A DNA stretch of 64,000 nt from Chitinophaga sp. XS-30 (GTDB lineage: Bacteria > Bacteroidota > Bacteroidia > Chitinophagales > Chitinophagaceae), in NCBI RefSeq assembly GCF_008086345.1, contig NZ_CP043006.1, forward strand, positions 4,214,032 to 4,278,031, in the 5' to 3' direction. The translations under genes were made by a program, and so were the position numbers. The notes beneath the pieces are model-generated. The model was not told the DNA's origin. It was given only the letters and a program-made list of their open reading frames with translations, and did not search any database. Shown piece by piece: positions 44,416 through 54,288 of the stretch; the first letter of the stretch is position 1, and every line of letters starts with the position of its first letter.

Positions 44416-47400
44416 ATGAAACAGCTAAAAACGCTGATGTACGTGCGTGCTGAAAACAACGGAGCCTTTGACGGCTCAGTACATGGCTCGCAGGTAACAC
44501 TGAGCGGCAGCATTGCCCGCGCAGAAACAGAGAACCAGTTCCTTGTAAAGAAAGGCTTTATCAACATGGGCCGTATCCCGGAAGTGGAAAAGAGCGGCAC
44601 ATTCACACTGGAAGCCATTGTGATCCCGGATGCGGTAAAAGGCAGCCGGCAGAACATCATCGAATCCCAGTCCCCTCCCGCCGCGCTTTTCATTGATGCC
44701 AAGGGGCTGCTTACCGGCAGTGTGCATATCAAAGGCAGCGGCTGGAAGAGCCTCGCCGCCAAAACCGCACTCACTGCGGGGAAAACGCACCGCGTCAGGT
44801 TCTCCCGCGATGAGGCGGGCAAACTCGCCCTGGAGGTAAATGACAAAGCCGTGGCCTCGCTGAAGGTGACCGGCACGCTCGAACCCGTAGGCAAGCTGGG
44901 CTTCAGGGCGGGTGCGGGAATGGACGGCAGAAGCTACCAGTTCAAAGGCAAGATCGGTGACATCATCATCCGCGAAGGGGCCTTCACTTCAGCGGCCTGG
45001 AACACCCGCGTCAAGGCTGCAAAAACGCTGGAAACAAAGATCAAAGCAAAGATCGGCCTCAATGCCATCGTCAACGTGATCGCCAGTCTGGATGAAAGCA
45101 GGGCCCGTCTGCAGCCGGTCAAAGAGATCATGAACGCAGCCGGTGTGGAAAAGATCAGCGACCTGTCCACCCTTCAGATCAAAGTACCGACCTCCATCCC
45201 CAAAGGGAAAGTGCTGATCGCGCCGAGGAAACAGAAAGAAGTGAAAGTGAACTGGGGCAAGCTTGCCACCAGCTTTACGCAATTGACCGCGGCACAGAAG
45301 AAACAGCATCTTGCCCGTTACCTGCCGAACCGGAACAGTACGGCGGTACTAAAAACGGCTACGGCCGCTGCACCTGCTCCCTTAACCCCTTCGCGGCCGG
45401 TTGGCACCATCAATGCCACGGGCCTTTCCAGCCGGCTGGATGCGTTGACGGTACTTAACAGAACAGGTGTGCGGCTCTCCCGCGAAGCGATCAGCACCAG
45501 CCCGACCATAGAAGCATTCCGCAGCAACATCAGCCTGAACGAGGTCGTGCAGTTGACGGGAACAGGTTTAAAGCTGAACAACAAAGAAACTTTCCTGAAG
45601 CAGATTGCGGCCTTCAAGCCGGAGGCCTGGCCTTCGCTAACGGAAAATGTGCGGCCGCTCATGCTGCGCACGCTGCCGGTGAACACTTCCGTGATCATTG
45701 CGGGCGTGCTGGACCTTACCAATACACAGGTGATCATAGAGCCCGACGTGGAAAAACTTTATATCATTGCCGAGCGGGTGATCTGCGGCAGCAATGCGAA
45801 TATCACCTGGCGCAGGCCGGGCGGCTCCACCCCTCCCCGGCTGGATGATCCCGGCCTGAACGGCCGCGGATGGAACGGCATCCATACCAAATCCGGTTCC
45901 CGTCACGGGCTGGATGGTGAAAACGGCAGAGCCGGAGCCTCCGGCATCAGTGGCGCAGCCGGCCGCAATGCTCCTGCCCTGGAAATGTGGGTAAAAGATC
46001 TCACCAACATCCCCAATATCGATCTGAACGGTGAAAACGGCATCAAAGGTGGTACCGGCCAGCGAGGTGGCAGCGGCGGCGATGGCGCCGATGGCAGCGG
46101 CGGAAAACGCGCCTGGTTCTTTGGATGGCATTGCGTGAGCGACCCGGGAGACGGCGGAAACGGTGGCAATGGCGGGCGTGGCGGTGATGGCGGACGTGGC
46201 GGCAATGGCGGTCACGGCGGCGGCATCACCATCGGCGTGCTGGACGGCACATTGGCCACTACCGTCACCAATAACGCCTTCCGCCTGAAGAACCAGGGCG
46301 GCCAGCGCGGGCGCGGCGGCAATGGCGGCAGTGGCGGACGCGGAGGCAGCGGAGGACGCAGCGGCAACGGAGAAACCTGCCGGGATGCCCGCAACGGCGT
46401 GAGCGGCGCACAGGGCCAACCCGGCGCCACCGGCGCCGACGCAGCACTGGCAGGCCAGGACGCCGAAAACCGTTTCTTCCAGTTCTCCGAAGATGCCTGG
46501 GAAGAACTGCTGACCCGTCCGTTCATCACGGAGATCAACCCTTCCGAAGTATTCCCCGGCAACAACATCACACTGCGAGGCACACAGTTCGCGAATAACG
46601 ACCGGGTGATCATCGATGGCGTAGCCACGCTGGTACCTGTCATCAATCCGGACGAAAGCATCACTGTTACCGTACCTTCCAATATCGCAGGAGGGCAGAA
46701 ATCAGTGTACGTCAGGCGGGCATCGGACGGCACTGAAAGCAACCGTGTGCCGCTCCGCATCAAGCCGCAACTGGATACGCTGCCTGCCGCACTCGCACCG
46801 GCCACGGATATCACCATCAGCGGCAAGGCATTTCTGGCGGGCGCATCCGTGCTGGTGAACGGCGCTGCCATTCCGGCTTCCAGCGTTACACCCACCCAGA
46901 TCATTTTCCTGATGCCCGGCACCGGCGGAACCGGCAGCAGCGGCGGCAGCGTAAGCGTACAGGTGAGGAATCCCGATGGGATGGTGAGCAATAGCAGGAC
47001 AGCCACCAAACCCCGGGTGCTGGAAATACCCTTCACCTACGGCATCCATAATCTGCCTTTCAATAACTTCAAAGACGGCATACCCAGCTGGGGAACGTTT
47101 GAAGATACTTTCGGCGCGGCCGAGGTCTGGCATGAATTGCTGGACCCGGTATTCGGGCATCCGGTACTGACCGCTGCCTATTATGTTTTCTATGAGCATT
47201 TTCTTAAGGGTCAGGACAATGGCGGGCTGGCTACCGGTTTCTGTACTTCCCTCGCCAGCCTGGTGGCCGATAAACTGTGGAAAGGCGAAACGAATGCCAT
47301 TACCACCACCAAAGCCAGTGTGCATAAAATGCTCACCGCCATACACGGCAAACTGCTGAGCCGCGAAAGCCTGATCCACTTCCACGACCAGAGCCGGGAG

Positions 47401-48492
47401 GGCACGGCGCGGGTAGAGCAAACGGCCAGAGAGATCGAAAGGGCTTTCCTGACGGGTTGTGACCGCAATGTGGCCCCGCTCCTGTTCTTCATCCCCTCCG
47501 GCGCCATTTGGGATGCGGGGTATATCGATGGGCTGAGCGATTCACACTGCATCATGCCTTACCGTTTTATCTATCCCGCAGGCCATCCCGGCCCGCAGCT
47601 CAGTCCTGACGGCTCTACCACCATTGGCTCGCTGGATGGTGTGCAGCTGTTCTGCTGGGATTGCAATCATGCCGATAATCCCAACTGCCGCCTGCAGTTC
47701 CGGATGGATGGCGGTGTATTGCATTATGATTATTTCAATGGCGGCGCCGGTGTTAAATTCAGCAGCAGCGATGGTATCACCCTGGGCCAGATGAGCAACG
47801 GCGATTATATGCTGTCCGATCACGACCTGCCCTTCGGTGGCCCGTTCGGCCTGACCAGCTTTATCATTGACTTCCTGTTAAGCCCGGCGGATATCGAGAT
47901 ACTGGACGAAAACGGCCTCCGAGCAGGAAATTTCAACAACAGGATATACAGCGAGATCCCCGGCTCACATCCCTGCTACCTGTTGCCCGGGGCGTATCTG
48001 TTGCCTGTCAACAGAAGTTACACCCGCCACATCGTTGGCAATGGCGCAGGGAACTACACGTTCAACAGCATCATGCCGGATGGCACAACGATCAAGCTGG
48101 AGAATGTGCAAACACAACCCGGCCACAGAGATTCGCTGATGGTGAATGCCGATGCTTCGCAGATCCGTTTTGCGCCACATATGGAGAAGGAATTTACGGT
48201 AACATTCTCCCGCCTGGTCGGCAACCAGATGCGGTCGCTGGCGATCAGCGGCGTTGGCGGCGGTCCCGGTACGGAAACGGACATCACCGTAGCGCCGGAC
48301 CTCAGCCTTTTCCGTCTCGGCAACCGAAGCTCGTTGAAGAATGTACAGGTGCAGGCGTTTTCGATTAACCGGACGAGCAATACGCCGGTCAATAAAAAAG
48401 TAAATGTGAGCCTGCCCAAGGATCACGACCTGGTGGTATCTGTGGGGAACTGGAATACCGTGAATTTGCAGGCCGAAGCTTTGGAATTTTAG
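44416..48492 (+). CDS. Large LamG / glycine-rich / IPT-TIG protein with probable papain-like domain
   Basis: 1358 residues without a signal peptide or membrane helix. About 1-190 is a LamG/concanavalin-like sandwich (FLVKKGFINMGRIPEVEKSG). About 190-470 is Lys-rich and unrecognised. About 495-680 is collagen-like/PGRS-like, with runs such as GGNGGNGGRGGDGGRGGNGG. About 700-870 holds two IPT/TIG Ig-like domains (FITEINPSEVFPGNNITLRG; ITISGKAFLAGASVLVNG). About 930-1100 resembles papain/C39-type cysteine hydrolases: Cys943 (GFCTSLASL), His1044 (SDSHCIMPYRF), Asp1082 (CWDCNHADN). The C-terminal 200 residues are beta-rich. The role is unknown; a secreted or surface hydrolase exported without a classic signal is one possibility. 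Confidence 0.8.
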   Translation: MKQLKTLMYVRAENNGAFDGSVHGSQVTLSGSIARAETENQFLVKKGFINMGRIPEVEKSGTFTLEAIVIPDAVKGSRQNIIESQSPPAALFIDAKGLLTGSVHIKGSGWKSLAAKTALTAGKTHRVRFSRDEAGKLALEVNDKAVASLKVTGTLEPVGKLGFRAGAGMDGRSYQFKGKIGDIIIREGAFTSAAWNTRVKAAKTLETKIKAKIGLNAIVNVIASLDESRARLQPVKEIMNAAGVEKISDLSTLQIKVPTSIPKGKVLIAPRKQKEVKVNWGKLATSFTQLTAAQKKQHLARYLPNRNSTAVLKTATAAAPAPLTPSRPVGTINATGLSSRLDALTVLNRTGVRLSREAISTSPTIEAFRSNISLNEVVQLTGTGLKLNNKETFLKQIAAFKPEAWPSLTENVRPLMLRTLPVNTSVIIAGVLDLTNTQVIIEPDVEKLYIIAERVICGSNANITWRRPGGSTPPRLDDPGLNGRGWNGIHTKSGSRHGLDGENGRAGASGISGAAGRNAPALEMWVKDLTNIPNIDLNGENGIKGGTGQRGGSGGDGADGSGGKRAWFFGWHCVSDPGDGGNGGNGGRGGDGGRGGNGGHGGGITIGVLDGTLATTVTNNAFRLKNQGGQRGRGGNGGSGGRGGSGGRSGNGETCRDARNGVSGAQGQPGATGADAALAGQDAENRFFQFSEDAWEELLTRPFITEINPSEVFPGNNITLRGTQFANNDRVIIDGVATLVPVINPDESITVTVPSNIAGGQKSVYVRRASDGTESNRVPLRIKPQLDTLPAALAPATDITISGKAFLAGASVLVNGAAIPASSVTPTQIIFLMPGTGGTGSSGGSVSVQVRNPDGMVSNSRTATKPRVLEIPFTYGIHNLPFNNFKDGIPSWGTFEDTFGAAEVWHELLDPVFGHPVLTAAYYVFYEHFLKGQDNGGLATGFCTSLASLVADKLWKGETNAITTTKASVHKMLTAIHGKLLSRESLIHFHDQSREGTARVEQTAREIERAFLTGCDRNVAPLLFFIPSGAIWDAGYIDGLSDSHCIMPYRFIYPAGHPGPQLSPDGSTTIGSLDGVQLFCWDCNHADNPNCRLQFRMDGGVLHYDYFNGGAGVKFSSSDGITLGQMSNGDYMLSDHDLPFGGPFGLTSFIIDFLLSPADIEILDENGLRAGNFNNRIYSEIPGSHPCYLLPGAYLLPVNRSYTRHIVGNGAGNYTFNSIMPDGTTIKLENVQTQPGHRDSLMVNADASQIRFAPHMEKEFTVTFSRLVGNQMRSLAISGVGGGPGTETDITVAPDLSLFRLGNRSSLKNVQVQAFSINRTSNTPVNKKVNVSLPKDHDLVVSVGNWNTVNLQAEALEF

Positions 48493-48635: not shown

Positions 48636-49025
48636 TTACAGCAGCCGCTCCAGGACTCCTTTACGTTTGACGATGTTTTTGTAGTCCCACTGGATCAGCC
48701 GCGATTTCTCCAGCCAGCGCTTCAGGTCGTCCGTATCGATCTGGCTTTCATCGGTGTAACGCGCTTCGGCAGCCTTGAAAGATCCTTCGGGGAGGAGGCC
48801 TTCTTCGTCAAAGGATTGGCCGCTCCAGAATAACAATCTGACACTGTCTTTCAGTTTGCTATAGCCAACGATCGGGTTGCCGTTCAAAAACCAGACAGGG
48901 TGCCGGTGCCAGATCTTGCTTTCCGCTTCAGACAAATGTTTATCGATCTCCTGCGCCAGTTTTTGGCAGATTACCTTGTCTGTGTTGGATTGGGAGTCGT
49001 TGTAGGATTTTATTTCTTTATTCAT
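48636..49025 (-). CDS. DUF1801 domain-containing protein
   Basis: 129 residues, cytosolic, single domain with the YdhG/DUF1801 fold. Features are ESKIWHRHPVWFLNGNPIVG, KDSVRLLFWSGQSFDEEGLL and the C-terminal KRWLEKSRLIQWDYKNIVKR. The function is unknown; relatives are small iron- or stress-linked proteins of the CyaY-like fold. The start at 49025 (MNKEIKSYN) is preferred over 49034. It stands alone, with a 257-base gap to the next sigma-factor gene that is AT-rich and holds that gene's promoter region. Confidence 0.85.
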   Translation of the reverse strand: MNKEIKSYNDSQSNTDKVICQKLAQEIDKHLSEAESKIWHRHPVWFLNGNPIVGYSKLKDSVRLLFWSGQSFDEEGLLPEGSFKAAEARYTDESQIDTDDLKRWLEKSRLIQWDYKNIVKRKGVLERLL

Positions 49026-49253
49026 TGGCTTCAATTTTAGTATTCATAAAGTGGTTTAAAAATAAATTGAAAAAACCAGTCTGCTTTGTACATCTAACCT
49101 AAGAAAAATAGTGCGTTCCCCCTCAACTCTGCTGACATAAATGTATCCGGTACATCTATTATATAAAAAAGAACCGGAATTTTCCCACATCACTATAGGA
49201 TTATCTTTATTTAAACTTACATATACGCTGTAATTTCCGACATCATTATTTTA

Positions 49254-49261
49254 TATATTTG
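49254..49261 (+). promoter_or_regulatory. Candidate -7 promoter element of the second ECF sigma gene
   Basis: TATATTTG matches TAnnTTTG, 30 bases before the ATG at 49292. No TTTG at the -33 position. The same arrangement is seen before the other two ECF sigma genes. Confidence 0.4.
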
Positions 49262-49291
49262 ACCAGTAATCAGGTTGGCGAACCAAAATCT

Positions 49292-49882
49292 ATGAGAGTA
49301 CTACCAGATACCACAGACGAAGCATTATGCGCGATGATCCGTGATGGAGATCAAGCGGCTTTCAGTATTTTATACGATAGGTACCGCAACCAGGTCTATG
49401 GTTATGCGTTGAAGCTCTGCTGCTCACCGGAAGTAGCGCTGGACGCAGTGCAGGAGGTATTCATGAAGATATGGGTCCGTCACGAAGCGCTGGACCCATC
49501 ACGCCATCTGAAGGCCTATCTGTTCCGATCCGCCCGGAACTATGTGTTCGACTATCTGAAAAAGGCCGTCCATGACGAGAAATTCCGTAAATGGTTCCTG
49601 CATATTTACGAAGAGGGCCTTAACCTCTCCGAACACCAGCTTTATACCAAACAACTTGAGCATCTGCAGATGAATGCAATATCGTGCCTGCCTGCCCAGC
49701 GGCAATTGATCTACAAAATGAGCAAGATGGATGGCCTCAGCAATCAGGAAATCGCGGGGCGTCTCGGTATCTCCGTTAACACCGTCCGGGACCAGCTGGT
49801 AAAGGCCTCCCGTTTCGTCAGGGGATATCTCCTGCGGTATGCTGATATTGCCGTACTACTGGCTGTTTTCCGTATTCTTTAA
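49292..49882 (+). CDS. RNA polymerase ECF sigma-70 factor, second Sus-type locus
   Basis: 196 residues. Region 2: FSILYDRYRNQVYGYALKLC and DAVQEVFMKIWVRHEALDPS. Region 4: LPAQRQLIYKMSKMDGLSNQ and EIAGRLGISVNTVRDQLVKA. The tail is hydrophobic (YLLRYADIAVLLAVFRIL), as in the first locus. ATG 49292 is preferred over TTG 49259. It begins the sigma-FecR-SusC-SusD series on the plus strand and should be held by the FecR protein 79 bases downstream. Confidence 0.95.
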   Translation: MRVLPDTTDEALCAMIRDGDQAAFSILYDRYRNQVYGYALKLCCSPEVALDAVQEVFMKIWVRHEALDPSRHLKAYLFRSARNYVFDYLKKAVHDEKFRKWFLHIYEEGLNLSEHQLYTKQLEHLQMNAISCLPAQRQLIYKMSKMDGLSNQEIAGRLGISVNTVRDQLVKASRFVRGYLLRYADIAVLLAVFRIL

Positions 49883-49961
49883 CTACTGCCGGAAAAAAAA
49901 GTTAGCCCCGGATCGTCCTGACTGTTTCTTCAATCGTATTGTTATATATCAGCTCAACCCA

Positions 49962-50912
49962 ATGTCGGAGGATCAAAACGAAATAAAAAAAATATTCATC
50001 AGGCTGGCAGATGGAAAAAGTACGCCGGAGGAGCGTGCGCAGTTGCTTGCATACCTGCAGCATCAGCCTTCCCTCAATGCCATTCCCACTGTGGAGGAGC
50101 TACCGCCTGACGAAAGCTGGCCGGTTATGCCTGATTGGGCCGCGGAAGCTGTATTGACCTCTATTCTTAACCTCCCGGTCACCACCCCGGTAATCCCGCT
50201 CTGGAAACGGACCTGGATAAAGATTGCGGCAGCCGTCATACCCGTGGCCGGTATTGCCTTGCTCGTGACATTGCAATACAACCGGAAAAACAATCTCAGA
50301 CATTATTCAAACAGTTCCAGGGCAGTACAGACCATCCAATTGGGAGACGGCACAGTGATCAGCCTGAACCAACGGGCCCGTCTTTCTGTAAACACCAGCA
50401 ACCGCGAAGTGTGGTTACAGGGCGAGGCGTTCTTTTCTGTTAAACAACAGGCTGCAAAACCCTTCATTGTGCATGCATCGGGTTCGCTTGACGTCACCGT
50501 GCTCGGCACTGCATTTAATGTGAATGCAAAGGATGAAAAAACACAGGTAGTACTGAATTCGGGAAGTATAAAAGTTGACGCCGGAGAACAAACCATGATC
50601 TTGCAACCTGGCGAAATGGCGGACTATAACACTTCCACACAGAGGCTCTCCAGGCAAAAGGCGGATACCCTGCTTTACACTTCCTGGAAATACGATCTGA
50701 TTGCTTTCAGGGGAGACCCTTTGAGCGTTGTCATGCAAAAACTCGGAGAACAATATGGACATGAAGTGGTGTTTGATTATCCTGATGCAGCTAACCTGCC
50801 TTTTACCGGGTACCTTGCATCTAACGATCTGCAGCAGGCATTGACAACGCTTGAACAAACTTTCGCGCTCAATATTCAATTACAAAATAACCGGTTATAC
50901 GTCAAGAAATAG
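49962..50912 (+). CDS. FecR family anti-sigma factor, second Sus-type locus
   Basis: 316 residues, beginning MSEDQNEIKKIFIRLADGKS. One membrane helix near 85-105 (WIKIAAAVIPVAGIALLVTL) separates the cytosolic sigma-binding part from the periplasmic FecR domain (AVQTIQLGDGTVISLNQRAR, VWLQGEAFFSVKQQAAKPFI) and a DUF4974-type C-terminus. An open frame upstream to 49839 overlaps the sigma gene and is not family-like. SusC follows after 28 bases. Confidence 0.94.
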   Translation: MSEDQNEIKKIFIRLADGKSTPEERAQLLAYLQHQPSLNAIPTVEELPPDESWPVMPDWAAEAVLTSILNLPVTTPVIPLWKRTWIKIAAAVIPVAGIALLVTLQYNRKNNLRHYSNSSRAVQTIQLGDGTVISLNQRARLSVNTSNREVWLQGEAFFSVKQQAAKPFIVHASGSLDVTVLGTAFNVNAKDEKTQVVLNSGSIKVDAGEQTMILQPGEMADYNTSTQRLSRQKADTLLYTSWKYDLIAFRGDPLSVVMQKLGEQYGHEVVFDYPDAANLPFTGYLASNDLQQALTTLEQTFALNIQLQNNRLYVKK

Positions 50913-50940
50913 CATCCTTCCAATATTCAAAACTTCAACT

Positions 50941-53900
50941 ATGAGAAAATCAAGATCAGTCTTTTTTCGGCTGATACCAGCTATTGCATGGCTGTTGTTC
51001 CTGCAGTTGCCGGCTGCCCGGTCAGGCGCCGGCGGCGTACTCAACACACAGCCGGCGACCGTATCACTTGTGTCGGTCATCAATGAGCTGGAAAGCCGAT
51101 TCGATGTCCGTTTCAACTACAACACCGAACTACTGAAAGGAAAACAGATTACGGCGCCGGACAAACGAGCATTCAAAGCAGCGAATATTGAAACGGTGCT
51201 GAACAAGTACATCCAGCCGCTGGGCCTTGTTTGCCAAAGGATCGCCGGCAGGTTGTATGTTGTCAAATCAGAGCAGCAGGAAGCCGCCGGGCTGCCCCGG
51301 TATCTATCAGCAGAAACGCAGCAAATACCTGTAAAGGGAATTGTGAAAGACTCAGCGGGTAACGTATTACCGGGTGTGAGCATACATATAAAGGGCAGTT
51401 CCAAAGGAACCACCACCGATGCCAATGGCCGTTTCAACCTGGAGTTGGTCAATGACGGCGATGTGCTGGTCTTCAGCCTGATCGGGTACACTACAGTTGA
51501 ACATACGGTAAGCGGCCAACAGCCCGTCGAAATCACATTGATGGAGTCTGCCATCTCACTGGATCAGTTCGTAGTCACAGCACTGGGAATCAGGCGGCAG
51601 GAAAAAGCGCTTGGTTATGCTGTGCAAAAGGTACAAGGCGATGCCGTACAAACGGTGAAAGGGGTGGATGTAGCCACCTCGCTAACCGGACAGGTGTCAG
51701 GGCTTGTGGTCAAAAATTCGACCGAGTTCTTTGCCCGGCCCACAATAGAGCTGCGGGGTGAAAGTGCTTTGCTGGTGATAGATGGCGTACCCTATGGCAA
51801 CACCAACCTCCGGGATCTCCCGACAGACGACATCGAAAGCATGGATATCCTCAAAGGGCCCACTGCATCAGCATTATACGGCTCCAGGGCCGCGGGGGGC
51901 GTAATCCTCATTACCACAAAAAAGGGGGCTGGACGCGGGCTTGCTGTAGCTGTCAATAGTAACACGATGTTGCAAAACGGTTTCCTGGCCATTCCAAAAA
52001 CACAAAGCGCTTACGGCCGCGGACAGAACGGAGAGATTGACAATGATTACGTATGGGGGCCAAGACTTGGCATAGGTAAAACCGCGCGTGACTGGAACCC
52101 GGAAACCAAACAATTTGAAGACGACCGACCTCTCAATTCCATCGGAAAGGATAACCTGCGGAATTTCATGGAGCCTGGCGTGATCACCAACAATAATATC
52201 AACGTATCCCAAAGCGGCCAGTACGGCAGTTTCCGGGCTTCACTGAACCATATATACAATAAAGGCCAGTTTCCCAATGCGAAGCTGAACATGTTCAACT
52301 TCACACTGGGTGGAGAACTAAAGGCCACCGATAAATTCACGCTGGAAAGCCATGTGGGCATCAGCAGAAGAACAGCACCGCAAATCTGGGGCTCCGGATA
52401 TGGCAACCAGGGCTATATTTATCAGCTTACAATGTGGACCGGACCGGAATATGATATCCGACAGTACCGTGACTACTGGAAAGTACCTTACCAGACACAA
52501 AACTGGATGTACACCAACTGGTACGACAATCCTTATCTCATTGCCTACGAAAAGCTCAACGGTATTCAGCAAAGTACGGTGAACGCCAGCCTTACTGCCA
52601 ACTACAAATTCACACCAGAACTGAATTTGCTGCTGCGAATCGGTTATGATGTGTATGATAACAAGGAGACCTTTTCCAACCCGACTGCCAATATCTATTC
52701 CACCCGCGGAGGCTGGAATGCGCGAGGGCTTTACCGGATCGACAAGGACTATGGCTGGAGTACAAATGATGATATCATGCTGAGCTACCAGAAAAAAGTG
52801 AGCGACTTCACCATCGACCTCATGGCCGGGAGCACCATCTATTATTGGGTAGATGAAAGCCTTTCCGCCGCCACCAGGAATGGACTGACCTCTCCCACTT
52901 TCTACTCACTCGCCGGTTCCGTTGAACCGCCCACGATCACACCGGGTTACGCCAGAAGGCAAGTAAACAGTCTCTATGGCAGGGCCGCCATCGGCTGGAG
53001 AAACGCCGTGTTCGTTGAAGCAACAGGCCGCAACGACTGGAACTCCGCGCAGCCGGAAGAGAACCGGGATTACTTTTATCCATCTATCGGCTCCAGCATC
53101 GTCTTGTCAGAACTAATTGAAATGCCGGCTTTCGCTGATATGTGGAAGATCCGGGGCTCCTGGGCAACATTCAAAACTCCCGCCGATGTCTATGCCATCA
53201 ACCGCCTGTATTCTACCACCACTTCCGCATGGAATACGTTAAACTCGGCCAGCTATCCCGGCAACCTGCTGGGAGCAAGTCTGCTGCCCAGCTCGCAACG
53301 CACCTGGGAGATCGGTACCGCTGCTTATCTTTTCAAAAAACGCCTGAATCTGGACATAACATATTTCAACAAGTATTACTACAATCGTCAGATATCCGTT
53401 TCCATCCCCAACTCCTCCGGATTTTCCAGCACATTGGTCAATACTGACGAAACATATGTCCGTAAAGGAATAGAGATCACCCTCTCGGGGTCGGTAATCA
53501 AAAAACGGAAATTTGAATGGGTATCCACTATCAATTTTTCCAACCAGCATCGCTATTATAAAAACCTGGATTCCGTGTACTCCGCAAAAAGTCCCTGGGT
53601 AAAAAAGGGAGAACGGCTCGACGCTTATACCGACTACTATTGGCTGAGAGATCCACAGGGTAATGTAATTCACAATAACGGCTATCCCGTTGAAAGCGAC
53701 TATGTAATGAAATACGGATACAGGGACCCCAACTTCAGCTTTGGTTTTATCAACACGTTCCAGTTCGGGAATTTTATGATGGGATTGAATATTGACGGGC
53801 GTATTGGCGGTTTGATGTATAACTATATCAACGACAAGATGTTTGATACCGGAACACATCCTGACACAGACAATTCCTGGCGTTACGATGAAGTGGTGAA

Positions 53901-54288
53901 CGGGAAAACAAACTATGTCGGCAACGGCGTAAAGGTTACTTCCGGAAGCGTTACTTATGACAACTTTGGTAACATAGTTAGCGATACGCGCAAATACGAG
54001 ACGAATGATACGGAGGTTTCTTATCAGGATTATACGCAGAACTTCCGGGCGGGTGATTATGGCGTGCAAAAGAAATCTTTTGTCAAGGTCCGTGAAATGT
54101 CTTTAGGATACCGGATCCCAGCTAGTGTGCTCGGCAAATTCCTCATCAGGAATGCATCTGTTTCCATCACCGCGCAGAACCTCTTTCTGTTTACGAAATT
54201 CAGGTTCTCTGATCCGGATGTGGACGATGAAAACCTCAACTCGCCCTCGCAACGGATGATCGGCATTAACTTCAAGGCAGGGTTTTGA
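50941..54288 (+). CDS. SusC/RagA family TonB-dependent receptor with STN domain, second locus
   Basis: 1115 residues. Signal peptide (RLIPAIAWLLFLQLPAARSG), STN domain (about 35-105: SLVSVINELESRFDVRFNYN), carboxypeptidase-like domain (GIVKDSAGNVLPGVSIHIKG), plug (VDVATSLTGQVSGLVVKNST; SMDILKGPTASALYGSRAAG) and the barrel. The STN domain again marks it as signal transducer to FecR. Its ligand is unknown, as no polysaccharide enzyme lies in this operon. The stop is 29 bases before the SusD-like start. Confidence 0.96.
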   Translation: MRKSRSVFFRLIPAIAWLLFLQLPAARSGAGGVLNTQPATVSLVSVINELESRFDVRFNYNTELLKGKQITAPDKRAFKAANIETVLNKYIQPLGLVCQRIAGRLYVVKSEQQEAAGLPRYLSAETQQIPVKGIVKDSAGNVLPGVSIHIKGSSKGTTTDANGRFNLELVNDGDVLVFSLIGYTTVEHTVSGQQPVEITLMESAISLDQFVVTALGIRRQEKALGYAVQKVQGDAVQTVKGVDVATSLTGQVSGLVVKNSTEFFARPTIELRGESALLVIDGVPYGNTNLRDLPTDDIESMDILKGPTASALYGSRAAGGVILITTKKGAGRGLAVAVNSNTMLQNGFLAIPKTQSAYGRGQNGEIDNDYVWGPRLGIGKTARDWNPETKQFEDDRPLNSIGKDNLRNFMEPGVITNNNINVSQSGQYGSFRASLNHIYNKGQFPNAKLNMFNFTLGGELKATDKFTLESHVGISRRTAPQIWGSGYGNQGYIYQLTMWTGPEYDIRQYRDYWKVPYQTQNWMYTNWYDNPYLIAYEKLNGIQQSTVNASLTANYKFTPELNLLLRIGYDVYDNKETFSNPTANIYSTRGGWNARGLYRIDKDYGWSTNDDIMLSYQKKVSDFTIDLMAGSTIYYWVDESLSAATRNGLTSPTFYSLAGSVEPPTITPGYARRQVNSLYGRAAIGWRNAVFVEATGRNDWNSAQPEENRDYFYPSIGSSIVLSELIEMPAFADMWKIRGSWATFKTPADVYAINRLYSTTTSAWNTLNSASYPGNLLGASLLPSSQRTWEIGTAAYLFKKRLNLDITYFNKYYYNRQISVSIPNSSGFSSTLVNTDETYVRKGIEITLSGSVIKKRKFEWVSTINFSNQHRYYKNLDSVYSAKSPWVKKGERLDAYTDYYWLRDPQGNVIHNNGYPVESDYVMKYGYRDPNFSFGFINTFQFGNFMMGLNIDGRIGGLMYNYINDKMFDTGTHPDTDNSWRYDEVVNGKTNYVGNGVKVTSGSVTYDNFGNIVSDTRKYETNDTEVSYQDYTQNFRAGDYGVQKKSFVKVREMSLGYRIPASVLGKFLIRNASVSITAQNLFLFTKFRFSDPDVDDENLNSPSQRMIGINFKAGF

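Follow-up and report, generated by a model that had tools for sequence, protein, structure and literature searches.

A Chitinophaga protein without a signal peptide carries a putative papain-like cysteine hydrolase core behind exchangeable fronts

Two kinds of described proteins offer the closest comparison to the one considered here. Marasmius oreades agglutinin (MOA), a fungal chimerolectin, has a lectin that is a beta-trefoil; according to the available extracts of PMC12964528, its toxicity to beetle larvae is abolished by removal of the protease domain or by mutation of C215, and mutation of the lectin sites lowers it to a much lesser extent. The LlpA lectin bacteriocins have no toxin module but are made up of two B-lectin domains, and, so far as the extracts of PMC6240691 go, most of them lack a Sec signal and their release is unsolved. 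The subject of this report is a gene of the bacterium Chitinophaga sp. XS-30, found on the plus strand at 44416-48492 of a 64,000-nucleotide stretch of its genome (the window; contig NZ_CP043006.1, positions 4,214,032 to 4,278,031), which encodes a protein of 1358 amino acids (aa). The open reading frame (ORF) begins with ATG, contains no internal stop and is intact, and the host genome is a single contig of 6.18 Mb. MOA, which has no signal peptide and a papain-like fold and whose protease depends on calcium, is much smaller than this protein.

The likeness to MOA lies in the plan, a lectin front and a C-terminal cysteine protease, both of which bear on toxicity in the extracts consulted. The difference lies in the type of lectin, and no sequence link between the two proteins was found. 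A beta-trefoil lectin of the MOA type has no Pfam match in the 1358-aa protein (E ≤ 10) or in the 20 members of an alignment of its homologues (A1; E ≤ 0.1), and no agglutinin family is among the 25 Pfam families listed for the 88 members of a larger alignment (A3). The likeness to LlpA and putidacin L1 is seen in two homologues, P0096 and P0162, which carry similar B-lectin units before the same core, but the 1358-aa protein has no B-lectin match, and the scores of P0096 and P0162 against the putidacin-type bacteriocin lectin model NF033557 (124.7 and 61.1 bits) fall far under its cut-off of 275. Judged by a membership test on sequence, neither the MOA family nor LlpA includes the 1358-aa protein. 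With the papain-like peptidases (C1 and C39) and the transglutaminase core the protein shares the order Cys, His, Asp/Asn, with Cys at a helix start and His and Asp at strand ends in a structural model, but profile similarity to them is 0.4-0.9%. A glycine-rich run of GGX recalls PE_PGRS; that identity was rejected, since no PE domain matches up to E 10 and the glycine-rich part lies inside the protein, with LamG before it and TIG after it.

The simplest account is that one enzyme unit stays constant while interchangeable fronts direct it, and that the protein carries no Sec signal. Residues 869-1358 would be the constant effector, made up of a cysteine hydrolase with the triad C943-H1044-D1082 and a beta-rich tail; the hydrolase would most likely be a protease and would belong to a papain-like family not yet described. 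The front half (LamG, glycine-rich part, two TIG domains) would bind glycans and act as a spacer, directing the enzyme to a surface; in relatives a B-lectin unit stands in place of this front, or the front is shortened or absent. Made without a Sec signal, the protein would remain in the cytoplasm until the producer is lysed or ingested, or else be exported by a contractile injection system; once released, it would bind sugars on another cell and cleave a surface or internalised target. Taken whole, this reading, a glycan-guided cysteine hydrolase without a signal peptide that works like MOA and exits by lysis or a non-Sec route, seems to me about evenly poised. Its parts differ in strength: hydrolase activity of the core is likely; sugar binding by the front is somewhat favoured; and action outside the producer could go either way. 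The parts of the gene are as follows.

44416..48492, plus strand: whole gene, 1358 aa, without signal peptide
44416..45000, plus strand: LamG-like front domain, residues 1-195 with approximate borders; Laminin_G_3 is found in 11 of the 20 A1 members but not in the 1358-aa protein itself
45001..45669, plus strand: variable linker, residues 196-418, from the alignment and the ratio of nonsynonymous to synonymous substitution rates (dN/dS)
45670..45906, plus strand: conserved lead-in to the glycine-rich part, residues 419-497, from the alignment
45907..46461, plus strand: glycine-rich part, residues 498-682, 62 of 185 residues Gly (34%), from the alignment
46519..46743, plus strand: TIG domain 1, residues 702-776, from Pfam TIG
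46789..47004, plus strand: TIG-type domain 2, residues 792-863, from NCBIfam NF058597
47020..47844, plus strand: putative papain-like hydrolase core, residues 869-1143, from the model, conservation and dN/dS
47242..47244, plus strand: codon of Cys943, in GFCTSL; model residue 75, start of helix 75-88
47545..47547, plus strand: codon of His1044, in SDSHCIMPY; model residue 176, one before strand 177-184
47659..47661, plus strand: codon of Asp1082, in WDCNHADN; model residue 214, just after strand 209-213
47845..48489, plus strand: C-terminal beta-rich part, residues 1144-1358

A preliminary description of the gene, made from the letters alone, had pointed to Cys943, His1044 and Asp1082, and the three residues lie in the motifs it gave. 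It had also offered their conservation in homologues as a test, and they passed. When 229 homologues were aligned to residues 869-1358, position 943 was C in all 199 aligned letters, position 1044 was H in 212 of 213, and position 1082 was D in 217 and N in 5 of 222. Among the 196 rows with all three letters, 192 read CHD and 4 read CHN; the 1358-aa protein and ten proteins from genomic loci are all CHD. Papain-type sites also accept Asn as the third residue. The invariance of the triad alone is no proof of catalysis, since other columns are equally or nearly fixed: C1045 (213 of 213), W1081 (222 of 222), N1084 (220 of 223) and H990 (210 of 212).

An AlphaFold2 model of residues 869-1358 has a mean predicted local distance difference test score (pLDDT) of 90. 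Cys943 stands in it at the start of a helix, His1044 beside a strand and Asp1082 just after the next strand, and this arrangement, compared for order only, is what would be expected of a papain-like core. From the model, a papain-like fold for the core is very probable, and the hydrolase reading is strengthened, though not proven at the level of fold. The papain/C39-like hydrolase of the preliminary description therefore stands in part: the triad is conserved and the order of elements is present in the model, but no profile link to C1 or C39 was found. The core may also resemble a papain-like family without annotation that is marked by HQV and YDPN motifs.

The same core unit appears behind different fronts: LamG/Gly-rich/TIG, a front without LamG, B-lectin and a short compact start. 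Simple text rules, applied to the 229 proteins (many of them fragments), found the patterns of LamG, glycine-rich part, TIG and core in 87, the compact form, which starts MxxLRS[ST]G, in 37, a B-lectin front in 2, and no pattern in 31. The order of parts that the preliminary description found unfamiliar is thus present in other genes too. A FastTree tree of 52 chosen sequences, midpoint rooted, puts its 11 compact forms in one clade (0.996), so the compact form probably arose once. Five Chitinophaga genes without LamG also make one clade (1.0), whose place beside Chitinophaga and Algoriphagus genes with LamG is poorly supported (0.265). Pfam B_lectin occurs in 2 of the 88 members, P0096 and P0162, the latter without a proper start. 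In the tree the partner of P0096 is the LamG form P0031 (0.915) and that of P0162 is the short P0137 (0.991); together the four make a single clade (0.98), a placement that would fit one or two changes of front. The B-lectin front of P0096 matches phrog_19296, of unknown function (PHROGs, E 1.6e-23); the 1358-aa protein and P0163 have no match in PHROGs.

Two observations touch these relatives. Compact members such as P0128, P0130 and the Methylomonas protein P0163 share the short start SLRSSGKI, followed by two similar 'S.R.L' stretches, and pieces resembling the compact start are found ahead of the core in P0137 and at the beginning of P0162; it is perhaps a targeting piece. P0121, a fragment on a 3.6-kb contig labelled Electrothrix, groups in the tree with P0016 and P0019 (0.997) beside Spirosoma, and may represent either a transfer across phyla or a contaminant contig.

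The 1358-aa protein belongs to a rare, patchy family that crosses phyla. Homologue searches scored about 8000 candidates each. The search with residues 850-1358 found 212 proteins at E ≤ 0.001; among the 120 matches listed, 110 are of 1290 aa or more, and identity in the listed matches is 56-91% over 86-100% of those residues. The source names include Chitinophaga, Algoriphagus, Spirosoma, Flavisolibacter, Anabaena, Paenibacillus, Nitrospira and a metagenome-assembled genome (MAG) of Candidatus Angelobacter. The search with residues 868-1358 alone found 115 proteins, Methylomonas and an Electrothrix MAG among their sources, and brought to light a form of about 530 aa that stands alone. With a profile of 15 divergent members, no protein beyond this family was reached (95 proteins at E ≤ 1, 7991 candidates scored). 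No description of the family or its architecture was found in the partial collection of literature searched.

Within the genus, 10 of 79 Chitinophaga genomes carry the core, the host included: three with LamG (the host, G454 and G012), six without it, judged by length and N-terminal text (open frames of 1058-1122 aa), and one whose copy is in pieces in an assembly 65% complete. That last copy (L033:7115-10329, in G485) is split into several frames, for which sequencing error is likely. In a sample of the phylum (395 genomes), the host genome gave the only full match, and a second match covered 49 residues. A scan of genome contigs, which used exact peptide patterns of one protein and gives a lower bound, yielded six loci (two in Chitinophaga, three in Algoriphagus and one in Segetibacter); the Segetibacter copy (L006:7995-11977) appears to be frameshifted, its two frames (898 and 513 aa) overlapping, and the shift is either genuine or a sequencing artefact.

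The closest named copy, in C. cymbidii (L001), is 87% identical to the 1358-aa protein. Against it dN/dS is 0.071 overall, lowest in the core (0.032) and highest in the linker (0.138). Against the C. alhagiae copy (L004) it is 0.109 overall, 0.067 in the C-terminal beta part, 0.069 in the core (next to lowest), 0.150 in the linker (second highest) and 0.162 in LamG. These values are rough, with dS near or above 1 (and saturated against Algoriphagus), but the core is under strong constraint (dN/dS 0.03-0.07). The overall ratios and the 50-87% identity of the 17 near-full-length homologues in A1 indicate that the gene is not a chance ORF.

The preliminary description had seen no signal peptide or membrane helix, and this is upheld, by crude hydropathy measures rather than a trained predictor. 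The best 12-mer in the first 60 residues of the 1358-aa protein scores 0.51 and the best 19-mer anywhere 1.48, as against 12-mers of 2.01-2.46 in three presumed secreted proteins of the window. There is an in-frame stop 9 codons upstream of the ATG, so no signal peptide has been missed before it. None of the 110 listed homologues that reach 1290 aa or more (106 begin with M) has a strongly hydrophobic N-terminus (12-mer above 2.0) or any 19-mer above 1.9; among 39 compact-type starts, which include two fragments, one has a 12-mer above 2 (2.2) and none a 19-mer above 1.9. By this crude measure the absence of a signal peptide appears to be a trait of the family.

Several results weigh against a glycan-guided hydrolase. 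There is no fold match for the core: whole-model structure searches, Foldseek among them, aligned essentially model residues 280-490, the C-terminal beta part, and the lack of a papain-like chain for the core in their lists does not show that none exists. By sequence, the single protein finds no solved relative of the core up to E 10, and the core profile found one chance match (E 1.9). The family core profile (83 of 88 rows) was compared by hhalign with profiles made from Bacteroidota loci, those with short or end-cut matches having been removed by hand, and gave 0.4% with Peptidase_C39_2 (19 of 26 loci), 0.9% with Transglut_core (29 of 30) and 0.4% with Peptidase_C1 (19 of 30). The controls gave 99.6-99.7% for C1 against C39 and only 0.4-0.5% for C1 against transglutaminase, so the test can miss relatives of this fold and is weak for transglutaminases. 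By these profiles neither C1 nor C39 is a close relative of the family. No peptidase, NlpC/P60 included, is among the 25 Pfam families of the 88 members (no profile-profile comparison with NlpC/P60 was made), and at the level of sequence the core unit is an orphan. As to sugar targeting, the family can do without it, since no lectin front is recognised in the compact form, and LamG and TIG need not bind sugar. No constant partner gene is seen by eye, genes for immunity, lysis and secretion not having been searched for beside the gene, and a cytosolic role is possible.

Such a role is the chief alternative, in which the protein would be a cytosolic cysteine hydrolase with LamG, glycine-rich part and TIG as protein-binding scaffolds and its substrate inside the producer. 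The lack of a signal peptide by the crude measure in the 1358-aa protein, the 110 long homologues and 38 of the 39 compact-type starts would suit it, as would the compact form without a recognised lectin and the lack of a constant neighbour between lineages. LamG, TIG and B-lectin are, however, mostly extracellular modules, and the patchy spread of the family, within the genus and in the phylum sample, sits poorly with a core cellular role; I consider this account unlikely, if more credible than the others. Alternatively, the protein could be an effector, its warhead the Cys core, that the producer exports by its own extracellular contractile injection system (eCIS). A contractile-sheath match at E ≤ 0.001 is found in all 10 carrier genomes, and the host has two neighbouring sheath-like ORFs (frames of 680 and 482 aa at G000:C1:5894279-5896571), which suggest an eCIS; VipB, a part of the type VI secretion system (T6SS), is found in none of the 79 Chitinophaga genomes, though other T6SS subtypes may escape the model. 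But 57 of the 69 other Chitinophaga genomes match the sheath as well (p 0.17), and the curated cut-off is passed in 7 of 10 carriers and in 26 of the 69 others (one-sided p 0.056), so that the association, uncorrected for relatedness of the genomes, is not significant. Moreover, sheath matches may be phage tails, and about 1.6 Mb separates the gene from the sheath genes. Export of this kind is rather improbable.

The remaining alternatives concern the core. It might be a cross-linker or acyl-transfer enzyme of the transglutaminase type rather than a protease, modifying, for example, the envelope. Transglutaminases share the Cys-His-Asp order, and transglutaminase and factor XIII chains do appear in the Foldseek list, but with a root-mean-square deviation above 22 and a probability of at most 0.09 these rows carry no weight, and the profile comparison with Transglut_core speaks against it too. 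The three residues might instead be structural or metal-binding and the protein a non-enzymatic adhesin, as the other near-invariant columns would allow and given that no activity is known; the exchange of Asp for Asn at the third position and the Cys at a helix start nevertheless suit a catalytic site better, and the core ranks among the two parts under the strongest constraint. To both accounts I assign little probability, and a glycan-guided hydrolase remains the preferred reading.

The front parts named in the preliminary description are borne out, LamG being seen by profile only in relatives. Pfam LamG has no match in the 1358-aa protein even at E ≤ 10, and P0003, 79% identical to it, bears Laminin_G_3 as a precomputed label. 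Pfam TIG matches at E 4.7e-12 (46.2 bits against a cut-off of 20.9) over two stretches, residues 702-776 being the better, and CoaZ_rpt_PGGG (NCBIfam) at E 6.5e-14, best over 792-863. The glycine-rich pattern is kept in relatives of other phyla, so that part is not a junk repeat. The full-length profile found only weak matches among solved structures, all outside the core, the best being cyclodextrin glucanotransferase over the first TIG (E 0.012).

Gene neighbours, compared by eye, are common only to close relatives and differ between lineages, and an operon partner was rejected on that ground. Downstream, at 48636-54288 of the window, lie a small DUF1801-like ORF on the minus strand and then sigma-factor, FecR-like and SusC-like ORFs (labels by eye). 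A scan for promoters and terminators gave 3 against 1.9 and 3 against 5.4 expected, little or no excess. The GC content of third codon positions is 0.689, as compared to a mean of 0.637 (sd 0.046) for the window's ATG-started ORFs of 200 aa or more, among them this gene; the deviation is not striking, and a recent foreign origin by composition was rejected. Cargo of a mobile element or phage found no match in PLSDB or INPHARED, and none of 38 pattern stretches in IMG/VR was confirmed. An anti-phage defence protein was likewise set aside, PADLOC giving no match for three members.

It is possible, though I advance it only tentatively, that the family represents a rare bacterial class spread over several phyla: lectin-guided cysteine hydrolases without signal peptides, one orphan enzyme re-aimed as its front changes between a LamG stalk, a B-lectin of bacteriocin type and a short piece, a counterpart of the fungal chimerolectin defence that exits by lysis or contractile injection. 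Its modular build makes targeting and catalysis separately testable. If the proposal is true, an unnamed enzyme family would be added to the papain-like fold, and the role of signal-less LamG/TIG/Gly-rich proteins would be joined with the exit of signal-less lectin bacteriocins. Bacteria would then build chimaeras of lectin and protease like those that mushrooms use against grazers.

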